DNA from: Candidatus Saccharimonadota bacterium | GTDB taxonomy: Bacteria > Patescibacteriota > Saccharimonadia > Saccharimonadales > Saccharimonadaceae | Reading direction: 5' to 3' | Assembly: GCA_017432425.1 (NCBI GenBank) | Contig: JAFRJE010000023.1 | Location: forward strand, 1 to 64,000 | DNA: 64,000 nucleotides | Part shown: piece after piece, positions 19,047 to 36,501 of the stretch | Position numbering within the stretch: the first letter of the stretch is position 1 | Layout: the number at the start of each line of letters is the position of its first letter | Made by a program: the position numbers and the translations under genes | The notes under the pieces: model-generated | Told to the model about the DNA's origin: nothing | Database searches by the model: none | The model's input: the letters and a program-made list of their open reading frames with translations, nothing else

Positions 19047-19180
19047 ATATATTATATTAACATCTTTTCGAAAAGAAATAAACATAAGTTATATCATAAA
19101 TTGGCTATGCTTGCTAATTTATTTTGTTTTTAGTAAAATTCTGTTTTAAGAATATTTTAAGGTTAACCAAAGGAAAAAAT

Positions 19181-22100
19181 ATGAGCTTAAAGAAAAGAAT
19201 ATTAAGTTTCTTTACGGCGTTCTTGATGATTTTCGGAAGCACTCCGTTTGTTTTTGAGAACGCGAGCGCGGAAGAAAACTCGCACGAAGGCGCATTAAAT
19301 GCTGATGGTGAAGCATTTAAGCCGGACGCATCGAAAAAACTAGATTCGAACGGAGACGGAACTTATACAATTACATTGTCCGTTACCGGAAAGGCACAAT
19401 CAACTACTACGACGACAAAAGCTAATGTTTTAGTTGTTTTTGACACGTCTGGGAGTATGGGGGATCGGGAATGTCTAAGATATACTGGAACTGGCTGGGG
19501 TCGACGTTGCGCCGAATATTCGACGAGGTTACAAGTAGCGAAAGACGCAGTTAATTCCTTAGCTGAAGATTTACTCAGCAACAACACCGAAGCAAATCCT
19601 GATATGGTTGAGCTCGCCTTTATTGATTTTTCCTCTAATGTTAACGATAAGACTTCCATAATAACTTCTTATGATACCGGTTCGAATAACGACGCCAAAA
19701 ATTGGATTAACGGACGAGGAGCCACTGGAGGGACGAACTGGGAAGCCGCGCTAAAAGCTGCGAATGAATTTTCTTTTGATGACGAGGACCAAACTTATAT
19801 CATTTTTGTTTCTGATGGTAATCCGACTTTTAGGTTAACTTCTCACGAGGCGACGGATGACCAGCGCGTTTGGATTGGTAATAGTTGGAATGGTCATTAT
19901 GAGACTACGGACACGGATGAATTCTATTATCCAAGCTATAGTGGCGGAAATGACACGCTTCATGATTCCAGACGACATACCGACGGAACTTATGGAACCG
20001 GTGTTGGAGATCACTATGGCTGGAACTTATCTGACGCAAAAACGCAGGCGACTGCTATTACGACTGCCGGGAAAAAGTTCTACGCGGTCGGAACCTTTGG
20101 CGACGCGGATAATATGAACGAATTGGGCGGAGAATATTACGACGCGACAGATTCAGAAAAGTTAAACGCAGCTTTTTCGAAAATTGCTTCTCAGATTACC
20201 AATAGCCTTAACCTAAAAGACGTTGAGTTCGACGACGGAATTACGACAATGACTCAAGTCGCGTCTTCGATGGTTGACGGCGAGCCGACTGGTTTTACAT
20301 ATACCTTAAACGGAAATACTGTCGATAAAATCGGAACTGTAAGCCTAGACAATAACAATGTCGCGTGGGAAGTCGGAGACTTAGGAAACGGAGACGTCGC
20401 AACGCTATCCTTTATCGTCTGGCCAAAACAGGAAGCCTACGATTTAATTGCCGATTTAGACAATGGAGTAAAAAACTACGACGACCTGACCGATGATGAA
20501 AAATACCAAATTGAAAAAACAGCAGACGGTCATTATAACCTAAAGACTAATACCGAGAGTCCGAAACTTTACTATAAGACTATTGAAACGATTGATGGAG
20601 TTCCTGGCGAACTCAGCGCAGAAAAGTATATTACGATTGAAAATCCAGACCCAGTTCCAGTTAATGATCTAAAGGTTCCTCTAATGAAACTTTGGAATGA
20701 TTCGCTGGACAATACCCAAAGGCTAGACAAAAATAATCCGATTAAAGAAATTACGCTCGAATTGACAAGAACTGATGTAGAAACTGACACAACGCAAACC
20801 GTCGCAATTAAACATGACGGGGAAACTATTTCTGAATTTAAGTTGACGAAAGATTCGACAGTTGATGAACAAGTTTCGTTCGAGGGCGAGAGTTATGATG
20901 CATGGGTTTATGAACACGAAATCGCAATTGCGCCTGGCGAAATGATTTCTAATAGCTCCGATAACTATGAATTATTAAAGGGGACTGGAAAGTTTAAAGA
21001 AATCGACAATTATCTAATTCTCGACGAAGGATATGACTATAAATTTAACGAGATAAGTGGTGATTATCATTTTGAATTAGAAAATATAATTTATCATCCG
21101 ATGATTATTGATGGAGAACTTAAGAGCGTCGTTATTGAACGCGATTCTAGCGGAAAAATTACCGAACTAAAAATTGAGGATTCGGTAGCAATTTACGCGA
21201 TGAATACACTAAAGGGCGGGATCAATGTTTCTAAAGTCGTTTACAAAAATGATAGTGATAAACCTTACGAGACTAATGAATCGTTTAAAGTTAAAATTAC
21301 TTTAGAAAAAGATGGCGAACCTTATAATTACGATTATAGAGTTTATACTTATTCTAATGTCGAACATACCGGCGAAGCGAATGTTAGCGGTCATATTTGT
21401 AGTACTGGGAACGAAAACGGTAACTGTGGCGAAGTTACAAATCAAAGTGGAATAATCGAAGCAGAAATCACTCCATACGATGTAATTCGAGTTATCAACG
21501 TCGAATCAGGAGTAAAATATAAAGTTGAGGAATTGGATGCAAATTCTAAACTAGGATATAGTCCTAAAACGATTAATTATTTCTTGAATGACGAAGAAGT
21601 AGAGGGCGAAAACGGTTTTTATACGGTATTCGGGAATACCGCCTCAAATGCAGTCGTTGTTAACAACTACTATACTGGAGCGTTAAAAATTTCTAAGACC
21701 GTTACGGTTGAGAGCGGGAACGAGAAGGCCGCAAAAGCAAAAACGTTTAACTTTACGGCGACGATTAAAGACGGCGAAAAAACTATTAAAACCGAAACTT
21801 GCGAACTTAAACACGGCGAAAACTGCGAAATTAAAGATTTGCCTGCTGGCGCAACTTATGAAGTTTCCGAAACGGAAGTAGAAGGATTTACGATGTCCTC
21901 CGAAAACGAAACCGGAACGATTGAAAAAGAAGAAACAAAAACAGCCGCATTTACGAACACTTATAAACTTTCGGGCAGCGAGGCGACGATTACTGTTAAA
22001 AAAGACTTCGGGAGTTTCTGGCATACGGATTTGAAGAGCGGGCTTGCGGATACATTTATCTTCATTCTCAAAGATTCTAAAGGGGAAGTTATTGGGCGAA

Positions 22101-23266
22101 AAGAAGTTACGGAAACTTTGAAAGACAGCGTAAAGTTTATTGTTCCGATCGAGATTAACGAAAAAATTGACGAAAACGGAAAGACGTTTAACTTCACGGT
22201 TACGGAAGACGAGAATTTTACGCGCGGCGGAATTAGTCGTGTAAAAGATGACGAAGATATAGAAGTAGCGATTGTTGCGAAAGACGACGGAAAGGGCGGG
22301 ATTACGTTCGAGGAAGCGGAACTTTCTAAGGATACGATTTACAATACTTACGAAGCGACCGGTTCGCTTACGCTTCAGGCGAAGAAAGTCTTAGAAGGAC
22401 GCGAATGGCTGGATTCTGATAAGTTTAGCTTTGAACTTAAAAACGAAGACGGCGAAACTTTAGATACCGCCGAGGTTTCCATGAAAGACGTCGAAGACGA
22501 GGTCGCGGACTTTAGCTTCGAAGAACTAGAGTTTACTGAAGCTGACGCCGGAAAAACTTATACTTATACGATTTCCGAGACCGGTACGCTTCCGGCTGGC
22601 GTCGAAAATACGACCGGAGACATTACTGTTACGGTTGAGATTTCCGACAATTATGACGGGACGTTGACCGTTACGGCAGAATATTCAGAAGAAAACCAGA
22701 CGTTTATTAACGAATATTCAACAAAAGCGACGGACGCGGAAGACTTTGTCGTTAAAGTTAGCAAAGAGATTGTCGATGATTCCGAAGACCAGACGGCGGA
22801 AGATACAGAATTCGCCTTTATAATCAAGGGACTTTGTGAAGAATTTGAGGATTATAGCGAGACAATTTATGTTACGACGGAAGATCTAATCGGAAGCGGA
22901 GCGTTTTCTGGAATTAGCTTCGACGAGGTTGGAGAATACCAGTTCGAGGTTTCCGAAGTCAATGACGAAAAAGAGTATTTTGAGTATGATACGTCGACTT
23001 ACGTCGTTACGGTTGTCGTCGAAGACGACTATGAAACCGCCCAGCTTTATATAGCTTCGAAGACGGTTGACGAAGAAGAAAAAGAAGAAATCGACTTAGA
23101 CTTCGAGAACCATTATAACGAACCTGGACGCGGAGAAGTTGAGGAACCTGAAGAAACGGAAACGAATCCATATACACGCGATAATATTTCCCTCTTTATT
23201 TCACTATACATCATTTCCTTAATCGGATTTGTCGGGGCGATTGTCTACGCGAAAAAGCGAATCTAG
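19181..23266 (+). CDS. Giant vWA/pilin-type surface adhesin with sorting-like tail
   Basis: This 1361-residue protein starts at ATG 19181 (MSLKKRIL), 6 nt after AAAGGA. It has a signal peptide (cut near ENASA-EE) and a von Willebrand A domain from about 45 to 340 with the metal site DTSGSMG. Several immunoglobulin-like modules of Cna-B and Spy0128 type follow, each ending near a (N)TY or NEY segment typical of streptococcal pilins. The tail has an acidic linker, NPYTRDN, a hydrophobic segment and the basic end KKRI. This is the layout of a sortase substrate with NPxTx in place of LPxTG. It resembles tip pilins of Gram-positive bacteria and probably binds a host surface. No sortase is in the window. 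Confidence 0.85.
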   Translation: MSLKKRILSFFTAFLMIFGSTPFVFENASAEENSHEGALNADGEAFKPDASKKLDSNGDGTYTITLSVTGKAQSTTTTTKANVLVVFDTSGSMGDRECLRYTGTGWGRRCAEYSTRLQVAKDAVNSLAEDLLSNNTEANPDMVELAFIDFSSNVNDKTSIITSYDTGSNNDAKNWINGRGATGGTNWEAALKAANEFSFDDEDQTYIIFVSDGNPTFRLTSHEATDDQRVWIGNSWNGHYETTDTDEFYYPSYSGGNDTLHDSRRHTDGTYGTGVGDHYGWNLSDAKTQATAITTAGKKFYAVGTFGDADNMNELGGEYYDATDSEKLNAAFSKIASQITNSLNLKDVEFDDGITTMTQVASSMVDGEPTGFTYTLNGNTVDKIGTVSLDNNNVAWEVGDLGNGDVATLSFIVWPKQEAYDLIADLDNGVKNYDDLTDDEKYQIEKTADGHYNLKTNTESPKLYYKTIETIDGVPGELSAEKYITIENPDPVPVNDLKVPLMKLWNDSLDNTQRLDKNNPIKEITLELTRTDVETDTTQTVAIKHDGETISEFKLTKDSTVDEQVSFEGESYDAWVYEHEIAIAPGEMISNSSDNYELLKGTGKFKEIDNYLILDEGYDYKFNEISGDYHFELENIIYHPMIIDGELKSVVIERDSSGKITELKIEDSVAIYAMNTLKGGINVSKVVYKNDSDKPYETNESFKVKITLEKDGEPYNYDYRVYTYSNVEHTGEANVSGHICSTGNENGNCGEVTNQSGIIEAEITPYDVIRVINVESGVKYKVEELDANSKLGYSPKTINYFLNDEEVEGENGFYTVFGNTASNAVVVNNYYTGALKISKTVTVESGNEKAAKAKTFNFTATIKDGEKTIKTETCELKHGENCEIKDLPAGATYEVSETEVEGFTMSSENETGTIEKEETKTAAFTNTYKLSGSEATITVKKDFGSFWHTDLKSGLADTFIFILKDSKGEVIGRKEVTETLKDSVKFIVPIEINEKIDENGKTFNFTVTEDENFTRGGISRVKDDEDIEVAIVAKDDGKGGITFEEAELSKDTIYNTYEATGSLTLQAKKVLEGREWLDSDKFSFELKNEDGETLDTAEVSMKDVEDEVADFSFEELEFTEADAGKTYTYTISETGTLPAGVENTTGDITVTVEISDNYDGTLTVTAEYSEENQTFINEYSTKATDAEDFVVKVSKEIVDDSEDQTAEDTEFAFIIKGLCEEFEDYSETIYVTTEDLIGSGAFSGISFDEVGEYQFEVSEVNDEKEYFEYDTSTYVVTVVVEDDYETAQLYIASKTVDEEEKEEIDLDFENHYNEPGRGEVEEPEETETNPYTRDNISLFISLYIISLIGFVGAIVYAKKRI

Positions 23267-29678: not shown

Positions 29679-30353
29679 TTAATAGGGGGACTTTTTTGAG
29701 TTCGCTTTTCGCCATTCGGCGATTTTGCCGTGATTGCCGGAGAGGAGAACGTCGGGGACTTTCATACCGCGGAAGTCGGCTGGTTTCGTGTATTGGGGAT
29801 ATTCTAAGTTGTCGCCGTCGGAAAAACTCTCGATTTCGGCAGAAGTTTCGCCGCCGAGAACGCCGGGGAGGAGGCGGACAATCGAATCAATCATAATCAG
29901 AGCGGGGAGCTCGCCGCCGGTTAAAATATATTTTCCGAGAGAGATTTTGTAGTCGACGAGGCTTAAAATGCGCTCGTCGTAGCCCTCGTAATGGGGGCAG
30001 AGGATAATGTAATGTTGAGGATTTTCGGCGGAAGTTTTAGAAAACTTTTTAGCCATTTCCTGATTCCAGACTTCGCCGACGAGAGTCGGGAGAATAACTT
30101 TCGCCGAGGGGTCTTTTTCTTTAACGGTTTCAATCGCGGCAAAAACCGGTTCGCAGCGAAGCAACATTCCGTCACCGCCGCCGTATGGCGTATCGTCAAC
30201 GGATTTATGCGCGCCGAGACCGAACTCGCGCAAATTTATAAATTCAAATTCAACAATTCCCTTTTCTTTTGCTTTCCACATCATCGAGGCGTTTAAATAT
30301 GGCTCGATTGCTTCGCGAAAGAGAGAAATAATCGTAAATTTTAGTTTTGGCAT
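29679..30353 (-). CDS. trmD: tRNA (guanine37-N1)-methyltransferase
   Basis: This 224-residue SPOUT methyltransferase has TrmD signatures. DDTPYGGGDGMLLR lies in the middle, LCPHYEGYDERI and ISLGKYILTGGELPAL form the knotted SAM site, and SFSDGDNLEYPQYTKP follows. It makes m1G37 in tRNAs, which prevents frameshifting. I start at ATG 30353 (MPKLKFTI), 6 nt after TATAAT; the longer open frame is promoter. Confidence 0.95.
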   Translation of the reverse strand: MPKLKFTIISLFREAIEPYLNASMMWKAKEKGIVEFEFINLREFGLGAHKSVDDTPYGGGDGMLLRCEPVFAAIETVKEKDPSAKVILPTLVGEVWNQEMAKKFSKTSAENPQHYIILCPHYEGYDERILSLVDYKISLGKYILTGGELPALIMIDSIVRLLPGVLGGETSAEIESFSDGDNLEYPQYTKPADFRGMKVPDVLLSGNHGKIAEWRKANSKKSPY

Positions 30354-30399
30354 AAAAATATTATACCATAAAGCTAAAACTAAAGCAAAGGAGAGAATC

Positions 30400-31329
30400 G
30401 TGCGGAAAAGCAATTATACTTTTTATGACCTATTAAAACTTTATAAGTTGCGCGCGGCGGCGAGAGGATTTTCGCCAAAAACAGTTCGGGCGACGGAATC
30501 GAACCTTAGAATGATTAGTCAATTTTTTAATTTAGAAACGAAAGTCCGGAAATTTCGGGAGGAAGATTATAAGAAATTTTTAATCGCGCTTCGAAAATCG
30601 GATTATTCGCGAGAGACGATGTATGATTTAAACGCAACTTTAAGGAAGCTAATTAACCTCGCGAGAAAACAGAAGTTAGTTAAATTTGATTTTTCGGAAA
30701 CGGGAAATATTCGTTTAAACAATTCAGAAGAATATAAATTAATTTCGGGAGAGGATTTTCGGAAAATTAGAGAATATTTTAATGAGCGCGGAGAGCGGGA
30801 ATTTGAGTTTCTGTTTTTGTTACTTTATTATACAGGAATCCGGATTGGAGAGGCGTTAGCGTTAAGGCGAGAGGATTTTAAAATTTATCCGCGGGAAAGA
30901 GACGGACGAATTTTAGTCAATAAATCATATCTTTATGAATTCAAACTAATCAAGGAACCGAAGAATAAAAAGAATCGAGTCGTTCCTATTCCGAGAGCTG
31001 TCGCGAAACTTTTTCAAGAGACTTTCGAAAAAACGCCGGTGGGAGAGCGGATTTTTCAGTTTTCGCCAAATGCGGCGAATCTTGCACTAAAGCGGGCGGC
31101 GAAAGTAAAAGGGGTTCCGGAGTTTCATTGTCATTCGTTTCGACACACATATATTTCCAATTTAGCGAGGAAGAGGGTTCCACTTCCGGTTATTTCGAGC
31201 GTTTCGGGAGATACGCAAAAGACGGTTTTAAGTCGGTATAGCCACATGTTTTTTGAGGACGAGAAACTAGTTCTTAAGGCACTTTCGGCTGCCGAATATG
31301 CAGCGAAGCCAGAGGGATACCGCTCGTAG
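30400..31329 (+). CDS. Tyrosine recombinase, probable pilin invertase
   Basis: This 309-residue protein has a SAM-like N-terminal core-binding domain (about 5-95) and a tyrosine recombinase catalytic domain. R148 lies in TGIRIGEAL, a lysine in the 185-191 loop, HxxR at 245-248 in CHSFRHT, and the nucleophile Y280 in RYSH. The usual second His/Trp is D271 (SGDTQ where GHSS is common). GTG start, AAAGGAG 7 nt upstream. Codons 297-307 (AAEYAAKPEGY) are exactly the 33-bp repeat at 31288-31320, so the gene runs into the invertible segment and its last residues depend on orientation (YRS here, predicted YAKTK after inversion). By position it resembles Rci of the R64 shufflon; Xer-like housekeeping is less likely. 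Confidence 0.88.
   Translation: MRKSNYTFYDLLKLYKLRAAARGFSPKTVRATESNLRMISQFFNLETKVRKFREEDYKKFLIALRKSDYSRETMYDLNATLRKLINLARKQKLVKFDFSETGNIRLNNSEEYKLISGEDFRKIREYFNERGEREFEFLFLLLYYTGIRIGEALALRREDFKIYPRERDGRILVNKSYLYEFKLIKEPKNKKNRVVPIPRAVAKLFQETFEKTPVGERIFQFSPNAANLALKRAAKVKGVPEFHCHSFRHTYISNLARKRVPLPVISSVSGDTQKTVLSRYSHMFFEDEKLVLKALSAAEYAAKPEGYRS
31288..31320 (+). repeat. Left inverted repeat / recombination site
   Basis: These 33 bp are identical to the reverse complement of 32207-32239. They contain the dyad GCTGC-CGAATAT-GCAGC, two 5-bp arms around a 7-bp spacer, which is the usual form of a tyrosine recombinase crossover site. They encode AAEYAAKPEGY in the recombinase frame and LPNMQRSQRD in the pilin frame. 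Confidence 0.93.
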
Positions 31330-31753
31330 AAATGACTACGCAGCCTTTTCCGCAAATATCACGAACTATATTACGAATAATAACGGCAATTTACCGGCTG
31401 ATTACACGACATGGTGTAGCAACACTAGCACTAACGCAAAATGTCTAAATCCGAAGAAATATATTAACACTGAGGGGGTTGACCAGTCTGGAAAGTCCTA
31501 CTTAACGGCAATCGTAACTTGCGATGGATCAAGCGCTGGCGACCAATGCAATAACAGCCAAATAAGACAAGGGACCGGATCTAGCACCGGAGTAATGATG
31601 CCAATTTCGCAAAACGACCAAGCGCACGTTTTACTTGTAAAGTCGGCTGCTTGTGGTACTAATCAGGGGACCGTCGTGAAGTCTAGCGGCAACCGCGATT
31701 ATGCTATTCTCGGTCAGCTCGAATCCGGCGTTTATTGCCAAGACAACGTATAA
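31289..31753 (+). CDS. Silent type IV pilin C-terminal cassette
   Basis: The frame runs LPNMQRSQRDTARRNDY at its start and NRDYAILGQLESGVYC near its end, homologous over its whole length to the pilin on the opposite strand (LPNMQRSQRDTQRRNDY and SRNFAIYGQLENGTYC). The middle is strongly diverged, including different cysteine spacing. It lacks the leader peptide, the hydrophobic assembly helix, a ribosome site and a promoter, so it is not expressed as a pilin in this orientation. An internal ATG at 31298 could start a useless 151-residue product. It is best read as a stored alternative C-terminus. Confidence 0.85.
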   Translation: MPNMQRSQRDTARRNDYAAFSANITNYITNNNGNLPADYTTWCSNTSTNAKCLNPKKYINTEGVDQSGKSYLTAIVTCDGSSAGDQCNNSQIRQGTGSSTGVMMPISQNDQAHVLLVKSAACGTNQGTVVKSSGNRDYAILGQLESGVYCQDNV

Positions 31754-31765
31754 GAAGCGACCTTT

Positions 31766-31795
31766 AAAAATACCCCTCGCGAGGGGTATTTTTTT
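31766..31795. terminator. Bidirectional terminator shared by both pilin cassettes
   Basis: The perfect palindrome TACCCCTCGCGAGGGGTA (31771-31788) is flanked by A5 on the left and T7 on the right, so it forms a hairpin with a U tract when read from either side. It sits between the two converging stop codons. Confidence 0.95.
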
Positions 31796-31809
31796 AGTGA
31801 ATTTTTATT

Positions 31810-32340
31810 CTATTGAGATGCCATACAATAAGTACCATTCTCTAACTGACCGTAGATGGCAAAGTTACGAGAACCGGTTTTGAAAGCTGGTTTCGAGTAG
31901 CCAGTAGCATCATCCGTACCGCTACAGTCAGCTTGTTGATAAACGATAACTATGCTTCCGGCATCGGTCGTAGCCTCCGAGAGAGAAGCCACTGTGTTGC
32001 TACCAGCCGACAACTGTTTTACGCTAAGTTTATACTTATTTCCTGTCGGATCCTCGCCGGTTGAATTTAGGTAGCGATCTTGCTGCGCACAAATCCCACT
32101 TAACGTCGCGGCAGAACCGTCACACGCAGCGGGGAACTTTCCGTTATTATTGGTCATATAGTTAGAGATGTTCGTATTGAGGGTCGAATAATCATTTCGT
32201 CTTTGCGTATCCCTCTGGCTTCGCTGCATATTCGGCAGCGCAATGAAGACCATCAAGAAGATAAGACCAGCAATCGCGAGGACGAGAACGACTTCGATAA
32301 TCGTAAAGCCTTTTTTAGAGTTTATATTTAGGGTTTTCAT
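31810..32340 (-). CDS. Type IV pilin-like protein (currently expressed form)
   Basis: This 176-residue prepilin has a short basic leader ending in KKG, processed before FTIIEVVLVLAIAGLIF; the conserved E5 of mature type IV pilins is present. The N-terminal helix continues to about residue 40, then the repeat-encoded LPNMQRSQRD, then a globular domain with cysteines (for example in CDGSAATLSGIC, ADCSGTD, TYCMAS). ATG 32340 is preferred; a TTG three codons earlier lies closer to AAGGA. A -35/-10 promoter with a 17-bp spacer lies upstream. Downstream of the repeat the sequence belongs to the invertible segment. It is probably the main pilin of a type IV pilus or competence fibre. Confidence 0.9.
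   Translation of the reverse strand: MKTLNINSKKGFTIIEVVLVLAIAGLIFLMVFIALPNMQRSQRDTQRRNDYSTLNTNISNYMTNNNGKFPAACDGSAATLSGICAQQDRYLNSTGEDPTGNKYKLSVKQLSAGSNTVASLSEATTDAGSIVIVYQQADCSGTDDATGYSKPAFKTGSRNFAIYGQLENGTYCMASQ
32207..32239 (-). repeat. Right inverted repeat / recombination site
   Basis: Exact inverted copy of 31288-31320, lying inside the expressed pilin gene where the assembly helix ends and the variable domain begins. Identity stops sharply at both edges apart from codons needed for the shared residues R-N-D-Y. Confidence 0.93.
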
Positions 32341-32380
32341 AGTTTTCAACTATTCCTTTCTATTTTTAGTACTTAAAGAT

Positions 32381-32409
32381 AATATACTAAATTTTCAAAC
32401 AAATTTCAA
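32381..32409 (-). promoter_or_regulatory. Promoter of the pilin gene
   Basis: On the minus strand TTGAAA (32404-32409) and TATATT (32381-32386) are 17 bp apart. It lies outside the invertible segment, so it would drive either pilin form. Confidence 0.6.
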
Positions 32410-32438: not shown

Positions 32439-34773
<2,335 letters not shown>

Positions 34774-34777
<4 letters not shown>

Positions 34778-36501
34778 AAATCAGCGTTACAGAGTTCCTG
34801 ACAATGGTCGCGGATATTCTGGAGATGTCCGGAATCTGTGTCACTATAATACATCACGCCATCGTCTCCTGTCAAGAAGTAAAGGTAAGAGGTTTCAGAG
34901 GGATTTGCGGCGGCAATCAGAGCGAACGAACCGGGGTTCGAGATCGGCCCGCAAGGGAGACCGGAGTTTTTGCGGGTATTATAGCAGGAGTCAATTTCGA
35001 GTTTCGCGGCGTTATCGGTATATTTCGCGCGTTCCTCGGAGGAAAGCAGGCTCAAAGCATAGGACACGGTTACGTCGCTCCCGAGAGGCATTCCGTTTTC
35101 GAGGCGATTATAAAATACACTCGCGACGTTTTTCTGGTCTTCGAGAGAGAGATTTCCCGCCTCTTTTTGGATAATTGAGGCGAGGATAATTCCCTGATAG
35201 AGGGTTAAGCCGCGGCTTTCGAACTTGTTTTTTAAGTTGTTTTTCGAGACGACTTGGGTTAGCTGATCGAGCATTGTTGTGATGATTTTTTCAATCGAGT
35301 CGGTCTGATAGAATTCATAGGTATCGCCGAAAAGATAGCCCTCGAGATTTTTGTCGGCGGGTTTTCCAGCAAGAATAGGGTGGGAATAGGTTTTTGAGAG
35401 AGCGGCGGAGATTTCTTCGTCGGAATAGGACAGGTTCGAGAGACGTTTTTTAAAGTCGGCGAGAGTTTCGCCGGGGAGGACTGTTAGGCGAAAGACAATC
35501 GCGTTTGTTGTTCCGTCAACGAAGTTTTTAACGAGTTCTTCGACCGAAAGAGCGCGACTAAGGTTATAAACGCCCGCCTTTAGCCCGGCGGAAGTCCCGT
35601 TCAATTTTACGAAAAGTTTAAAGGCAAACGCGGATTTTATTAGCCCAGTCGATTCAAGACGGTCGGCAATCGCAGAGACGGAGTCGCCGTCCTCGATTTT
35701 AAACTCGACGACTTTACAGGATTCGTTCGCAACGTTTTCTGAGGCGGAGCAATCTATTCCGGCAACGGACGAGAGAGCGTTTTTATACCAGATTTTAAAA
35801 GAAATAAAGCCAATTCCGAGAAAAATTAGAAAAATAATCAAAACTCGAATAAAAAGCCATTTTTTATAACCTTTTTTATAGGGTTTTCCCGTTAGAGGGC
35901 GTTTTTTCGCGGTTTTAGGGGAGTTTAGGGCGGAGTAGGGTTCAAGGGCGATCGGGTCTTTTACCTGCGTTTTTTCGGCTTTAGGAGGTTCGGGGATTTT
36001 CAGGGCGGAAGCCGGAGAAGTTTCAGCGACGGGGGCGGGGGCTTTCGGCGGGAGAGGCTTCGAGGCAACTTTAAAGGCGGGGGTCGTTGGGCGGGAGAGG
36101 CTTTCGAGAAAATCTTGGAGAATTATGACGGCGGCTTCCGTATCGACGTCGCCACGTTTTTTATTGATTCCGCCCTTTTTGTTTTTTAAGTTTTCTTTCG
36201 CGAGAACGGACGTCAGCGACTCGTCTTGGAACTTTATTTTCGAGTTCGGGAGTTTTAATTTTAAGTTTTTCGCAAAATTACGGACGTATTTTGACTGGGC
36301 GGTTTCCTCGCCATTGTTATTGCGCGGAAGCCCGATTACGAAACATTCGGCACCATAAATCCGCGCAAGTTTTTCGATTTTTTCAAATTCAGTCCCGTCG
36401 ACGCCAACCATGCCGTATGGGATTGCAATTCTTACGCTCGAATCAGCTTTCGCGACGCCGATTCGCTTTGTTCCGACATCTAGTCCGAGGATTTTCATCA
36501 A
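34774..36501 (-). CDS. RuvX/YqgF-MltG fusion protein
   Basis: This 575-residue protein fuses two normally separate products. Residues 1-135 are a complete RuvX/YqgF RNase H-fold nuclease (LGLDVGTKRIGVA, GLPRNNNG, FQDESLTS, DTEAAVIILQDFL), a Holliday-junction resolvase or rRNA-processing factor. A Pro/Ala/Lys linker (about 136-213) and one membrane segment (about 215-237) follow. The rest is the extracellular MltG/YceG lytic transglycosylase with a LysM-like part and catalytic E447 in IIQKEAGN. ruvX and mltG are neighbours in many bacteria, so loss of a stop could explain the fusion. It overlaps genes on both sides by ATGA. Confidence 0.88.

Follow-up and report, generated by a model that had tools for sequence, protein, structure and literature searches.

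We found in the genome of a Saccharibacterium a locus that is best read as a self-contained two-state DNA inversion switch, in which a type IV pilin gene would be altered by its own tyrosine recombinase; judged from sequence, the probability of this reading is about 0.85. The locus is carried by the 64,000-nucleotide stretch of DNA analysed here (the window, G000:C13:1-64000), which belongs to a genome of 711,736 bp, 97.5% complete in 30 contigs, and it is flanked by trmD (29679-30413, minus strand) on one side and by the gene of the Obg GTPase (32439-33761, minus strand) on the other. The switch had been proposed in a preliminary description of the same DNA, and it was supported by the anatomy of the locus, by a second species of the genus (G287), by the identity of the repeats and by the conservation of a silent pilin cassette.

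The evidence consists of exact inverted repeats located at the recombinase gene and in frame with two homologous pilin domains, an independent replicate of the module beside other genes in G287, repeat arms in which every difference between the two genomes is present in both arms, pilin domains that are far less similar outside the arms, a constrained and confidently modelled cassette, complete pilins after in-silico inversion in both genomes, a site that overprints the end of the recombinase gene, and a terminator-like hairpin on both strands between the domains of both genomes. In the proposed mechanism the recombinase, which we infer to perform the inversion itself, would bind two identical inverted sites and invert the 952 bp segment between them (31288-32239, both arms included, without strand). 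The promoter, ribosome site, leader and membrane half of helix 1 would remain fixed outside the segment, which would hold two alternative distal halves (the rest of helix 1 and the globular domain), which face each other tail to tail across a terminator-like palindrome. With each flip the part of the pilin exposed at the surface would be swapped and its assembly part kept constant, and the end of the recombinase, whose frame would be open in both states, would be altered as well.

Anatomy of the locus

The tyrosine recombinase, the presumed invertase, is encoded on the plus strand at 30400-31329 (309 aa, GTG start, with AAAGGAGAG upstream), and its assignment to this class in the preliminary description was borne out by a score of 62.4 bits against PF00589 (cut-off 27.1). 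Its last codons lie inside a 33 bp repeat (31288-31320, plus strand), through which the frame runs to its stop. The second arm (32207-32239, minus strand), 886 bp away, matched the first at 33/33 positions and corresponds to codons 38-48 of the pilin gene, in agreement with the exact inverted copy described earlier. The repeat is read as LPNMQRSQRDT in the pilin frame and as AAEYAAKPEGY in the recombinase frame. A search of the window genome (0.71 Mb) with the repeat region yielded these two places only and no third copy, and the exact 29-mer of the repeat was absent from viral_contigs. A candidate symmetric core with a 7 bp spacer (CGAATAT / CGACCAT) was found within the site; dyad symmetry was dropped as evidence for the site, because the top score was shared by five of 42 distinct motifs, including three that are switch arms (a count restricted to loci L006-L046, of 65 motif places).

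The full pilin occupies the expressed position (31810-32349, minus strand; 179 aa from a TTG start, with an alternative ATG at 32340). It bears a prepilin leader with GFxxxE and a hydrophobic helix, and exceeded the cut-offs of both N_methyl (PF07963, 24.2 bits against 21.2) and TIGR02532 (22.8 against 16.3). Its AlphaFold2 model (mean pLDDT 89.0) contains beta strands and a single long helix at residues 17-67. The silent cassette (31298-31753, plus strand) comprises 151 codons and a stop, encodes the distal half of helix 1 and the globular domain, and shares the pilin's reading frame at the repeat; it is stop-free over its 151 codons, as was none of 2000 shuffles of it. The AlphaFold2 model of the cassette is a confident domain (pLDDT 90.1) with a helix at its residues 3-27. 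Foldseek gave no match to the PDB at E<=0.001 for either model. Since the repeat (residues 38-48) falls in the middle of the pilin helix, and not just after it as had been stated, the cassette would supply the second half of the helix together with the whole globular domain. The cassette had also been described as being without leader and helix: the leader and the membrane half of helix 1 are indeed missing, whereas the second helix half is present. That both domains begin in frame at LPNMQRSQRDT was confirmed, and so was their relationship as homologous but diverged domains, with 46% DNA and 35% protein identity (42/121) beyond the repeat. Some similarity is to be expected of homologous domains, yet against this low identity a perfect 33-mer stands far above background.

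Between the convergent domains there is a perfect palindrome with flanking A/T runs (31766-31793, without strand), which is terminator-like on both strands and so would be usable in either orientation. RNA folding of its two strands gave z values of -3.60 and -3.65 in the window and of -5.58 and -5.92 in G287; a simple terminator scan did not report the window palindrome. A promoter-like site (TTGAAA-17-TATATT, 32381-32409, minus strand) that agrees with the consensus at 10 of 12 positions is located upstream of the pilin and outside the repeats, and it constitutes weak evidence because 10 such sites occur in the region, against 3.9 in shuffles. When the segment was inverted in silico, both frames stayed intact in the window as well as in G287, giving a complete pilin with the other C-terminus, as had been predicted, and an open recombinase frame; the end of the recombinase changed from YRS to YAKTK in the window and to a 19-residue tail in G287.

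A pilin query matched only the pilin, the cassette and two weak places on contig C30 of the window genome, one among minor-pilin-like genes and the other alone about 18 kb away, so that the switch pilin is the only one of its class found in this genome. The genome also has pilB-/pilT-like genes as well as pilC-/pilD-like genes on contig C16 (pil names read from sequence), and a third gene of the T2SSE family is present on contig C10.

Several other genes of the window were recorded. A single frame of 575 codons (34774-36501, minus strand) carries RuvX (Holliday junction resolvase) and YceG/MltG domains, an apparent gene fusion, and another frame (33737-34777, minus strand) encodes a LysM and CHAP domain protein that is a probable cell-wall hydrolase. 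A protein of 1380 aa with VWA and FctA/Spy0128-like isopeptide domains (19124-23263, plus strand) is probably a surface protein, and a large relative of it adjoins a pilin in another genome (G309).

The module in a second species

Another species of the genus, G287 (record JAFWHC010000003.1, 'Candidatus Saccharibacteria bacterium' isolate RGIG5734, from sheep ileum), has the pilin, the inverted leaderless cassette and the recombinase in the same order as the window, and its neighbouring genes, EF-Tu and a DUF362 gene, are unlike those of the window. Its arms are identical at 38/38 positions and lie 909 bp apart, while its two pilin domains share 52% DNA identity outside them. Between the two genomes the arms match at 29/33 positions and all four changes occur in both arms, although one arm doubles as the recombinase tail in another frame. 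Over the 90 bases upstream of the pilin arm 72/90 match, and the recombinases are 44% identical. Arms that are identical within each genome and have changed in parallel between genomes fit recombination between the arms, or strict selection for matched sites.

In a tree of 39 pilin domains, picked from the loci examined here out of 365 pilin-bearing genomes, the cassettes of the window and G287 were sisters (support 99/91), joined next by the expressed domain of G287 (100/99), whereas the expressed domain of the window was nearest to the pilin of G269, which lacks the module. A flip of orientation between the window and G287 was looked for in this tree and is not shown by it, since each genome has its sister cassette in the silent place. 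The two assemblies show the corresponding orientation and the opposite one was not seen in them; we infer that both orientations occur in living populations. The codon after QRDT (window 31322-31324; L005 8150-8152) specifies Ala in the silent cassette and Gln in the expressed pilin of each genome, and might be a marker of orientation for surveys.

The sister cassettes are identical at 84/139 residues and match at 13/37 of their shared four-fold sites (dN 0.38, dS undefined); four-fold sites were counted in place of dS because only four of the 15 domain pairs gave a dS value, in each case above 1.9, and the other 11 left it undefined. By these counts, the cassette has been under selection at the protein level ever since the two lineages parted, though it is silently placed in both assemblies, and expression after inversion is the simplest account of this constraint. 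Neutral decay of the cassette had been named in advance as a sign against the switch; what was found is an intact frame whose residues are better conserved than its four-fold sites.

The order of genes in G269 is EF-Tu, pilin, DUF362 and transporter genes (polyamine type, read from sequence). In G287 the cassette and the recombinase sit exactly between the pilin and DUF362, and the contig also carries trmD, about 9 kb away from the pilin. In the window, the DUF362 and transporter genes are found at about 15-19 kb, with the pilin module beside trmD. By these gene orders, the module is present in two contexts of one rearranged neighbourhood. The pilins of the window and G269 are 63 to 68% identical, depending on the alignment, and a search for a recombinase remnant in G269 gave chance-level matches only (best E 0.96).

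The recombinase, related cassettes and other explanations

The pentad R-K-H-R-H and a nucleophilic Y are reported as the catalytic residues of tyrosine recombinases (PMC8138268). Catalytic-type residues common to the window and G287 enzymes are R148, H245, R248 and Y280, as well as K185 and K188; at the position of the second catalytic histidine, LGH in Xer, both enzymes, whose activity is presumed, and the relatives L054, L055 and L056 have SGD. Each of the two genomes has two PF00589 matches, the second of which is Xer-like (on contig C16 in the window genome). In a tree of 23 rows the window and G287 enzymes formed one clade with four enzymes of Clostridia/Lachnospiraceae (support 100/99), within which their pairing had a support of only 89/79. 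The separate Xer-like gene in the genome, and the position of the clade apart from the Xer-like genes of G287, G304 and G267, indicate that the recombinase is not Xer. The tree included 11 of the 44 loci of the profile search described below and was built without the Xer-like gene of the window genome (L101), which had no blastp match to the two query enzymes; L057, whose frame of 335 aa ends before the catalytic tyrosine, was kept.

The Clostridia relatives L054-L056, at 388-416 aa, are extended by about 70 residues at the N-terminus. L054 and L056 terminate at ALEDL/ALENL; from the equivalent KALS the window protein goes on with AAEYAAKPEGYRS, straight into the repeat. Its tail after the catalytic domain is only short, where Rci of the R64 shufflon carries an extra C-terminal domain. 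As the tail starts where the repeat starts, the site seems to overprint the end of the recombinase gene, with the caveat that L055 has an extension too, of some eleven unrelated residues. The surroundings of L054-L057 showed no convincing pair of inverted sites. The recombinase gene of L054 (5752-10691, from a rabbit Clostridia genome) lies upstream of a sortase-type pilus operon with an LPETG protein and a sortase-like gene (read from sequence), and that of L056 adjoins an open frame of 1934 codons that runs off the locus and probably encodes a surface protein (read from sequence).

The recombinase was rare, being detected in two of 394 genomes of the family (E<=1e-20), namely those of the window and G287, in 2/392 genomes of the order sample (profile search, E<=1e-22) and in one of the 379 genomes of the phylum sample (profile search, E<=1e-18), the window's own. 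Single-sequence scans of genome_contigs and viral_contigs gave no homologue. With a two-row profile, 44 loci were obtained in genome_contigs, five of them below E 1e-50 (the record of G287 and the four Clostridia), and three weak ones in viral_contigs. The best PHROGs match was the integrase family phrog_1. The direction of any transfer of the recombinase between the lineages is here a matter of interpretation.

Among 174 genomes of the genus, 57 matched a pilin motif search, and identical motifs on opposite strands about 1 kb apart were found in three of them (window, G287 and G267). A broader search, matched by 108 of 170 genomes, added one near-identical convergent pair, in G385, where the pilins are all full length; in G313 and G381 similar motifs form head-to-head pairs. 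The survey covers genomes whose pilin motif fits either search pattern.

The strongest of the other explanations, though an improbable one, is that the cassette is a silent donor used by homologous recombination (gene conversion) and that the neighbouring recombinase is coincidental. Its best argument is G267 (L036, G267:C3, 4851-5979), in which a full pilin and an inverted leaderless domain with an identical motif stand tail to tail within a pilus-assembly locus, with arms of 126 nt (96% complementary, 114 nt exact) and no recombinase beside them. The G267 cassette may be a donor for exchange by homologous recombination, and it implies that the inverted-cassette geometry alone is not proof of a dedicated enzyme. 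Moreover, in G385 (L147, G385:C2:60500-67500) pilD-like and pilC-like genes enclose an array of five full-length pilins, not all in the same orientation, of which some pairs are near-identical in their N-terminal halves with different C-termini, which suggests that pilins of the genus also recombine where this enzyme is lacking. In the window and G287, however, exact identity stops at 33 and 38 bp, which is short for homologous recombination, and in both genomes the recombinase gene, one of only two PF00589 matches in each, overlaps an arm.

Somewhat less probable still is the remnant of an integrating element, now inactive, whose integrase took the pilin motif as attachment site and left a truncated second pilin. 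An integrase gene that ends at its own site is typical of integrated elements, the nearest relatives outside the genus are integrase-like proteins of Clostridia, the best PHROGs family is one of integrases, and the single-pilin relative G269 has DUF362 directly after the pilin, where G287 has the cassette and the recombinase. Against it, no other element-like open frame was seen between the flanking genes of either genome (frames partly profiled), and a constrained cassette with arms that are identical yet changing between species is unlike an inactive remnant. As an origin, such an element is compatible with the switch. Assembly or binning artefacts, which inverted repeats can cause and for which the several contigs of both genomes leave room, are very improbable, because G287 has the arrangement again, in another sequence and among other neighbours, and the contig of the window is 141,238 bases long.

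Inversion by the dedicated recombinase is thus the reading that we retain, and the points that count against it are the single orientation seen in both assemblies, the rarity of the recombinase, the geometry of G267 without the enzyme, the SGD at the second histidine, a symmetry that is not special and the tail of L055. A more detailed history has a somewhat lower than even chance of being right: an integrase lineage shared with gut Clostridia would have been captured by Saccharibacteria, shed its N-terminal part and adopted the conserved codons of pilin helix 1 as a site overprinting its own gene end, giving a portable module that flips the exposed part of the pilin and so hedges between hosts or evades recognition by host or phage.

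Biological meaning and comparison with known systems

Cultured Saccharibacteria grow attached to other bacteria. For Nanosynbacter lyticus it is reported that a thin type IV pilus takes part in host binding and a thick one in twitching, that pilA1 and the remaining targeted pilins of locus one resisted deletion, and that pilA2 has a share in host binding (PMC12206443). The Saccharibacterium of the window is probably host-dependent and attached to other bacteria as well, and the pilin swap would alter its attachment to, or recognition by, the host bacterium. If the switch is real, a genome of 0.7 Mb with only two PF00589 matches would possess a dedicated mechanism of diversity, a heritable and reversible change in the exposed part of a pilin, which bears on how so reduced a genome copes with changing hosts. 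With such a switch it could be tested directly whether a pilin's identity determines the choice of host, and the window and G287 would offer two natural pairs of site and enzyme whose recombination site is read in two coding frames.

In other gene-altering inversions (hsdS, pneumococcal PsrA and others), inverted repeats in coding sequence exchange protein parts; here, what would be altered is a type IV pilin, the single one of its class found in an ultrasmall bacterium. The cassette of G267 has the tail-to-tail geometry in common with the window, and differs in its 126 nt arms, in the missing adjacent recombinase and in its pilus-assembly locus. The Clostridia loci L054-L057 share the recombinase clade (100/99), and differ from the window in the longer N-terminus of L054-L056 and in having no convincing site pair nearby. 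The preliminary description knew of no case in a CPR bacterium, and none was found in the open-access literature searched, judged by titles and the start of abstracts.

Piv of Moraxella is not a tyrosine recombinase, whereas the recombinase here is of the PF00589 tyrosine class; the two systems would have the inversion of a type IV pilin in common. In Moraxella bovis and M. lacunata, a site-specific inversion is reported to switch between two type IV pilins (PMC4073114, PMC11868660). The R64 or IncI shufflon works with a tyrosine recombinase, rci, which is reported to invert segments that give a pilin alternative C-termini on a constant N-terminus, as proposed here, at sfx sites of 31 nt (12+7+12) (PMC11852207). 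As described there, R64 has four segments and seven sites and acts on the tip adhesin PilV of a conjugative plasmid, whereas the present locus has two alternatives of a chromosomal pilin, and the two sites found in the window genome fall short of the several segments and sites of a shufflon. Unlike in R64, the 3' end of the recombinase gene lies here inside the site.
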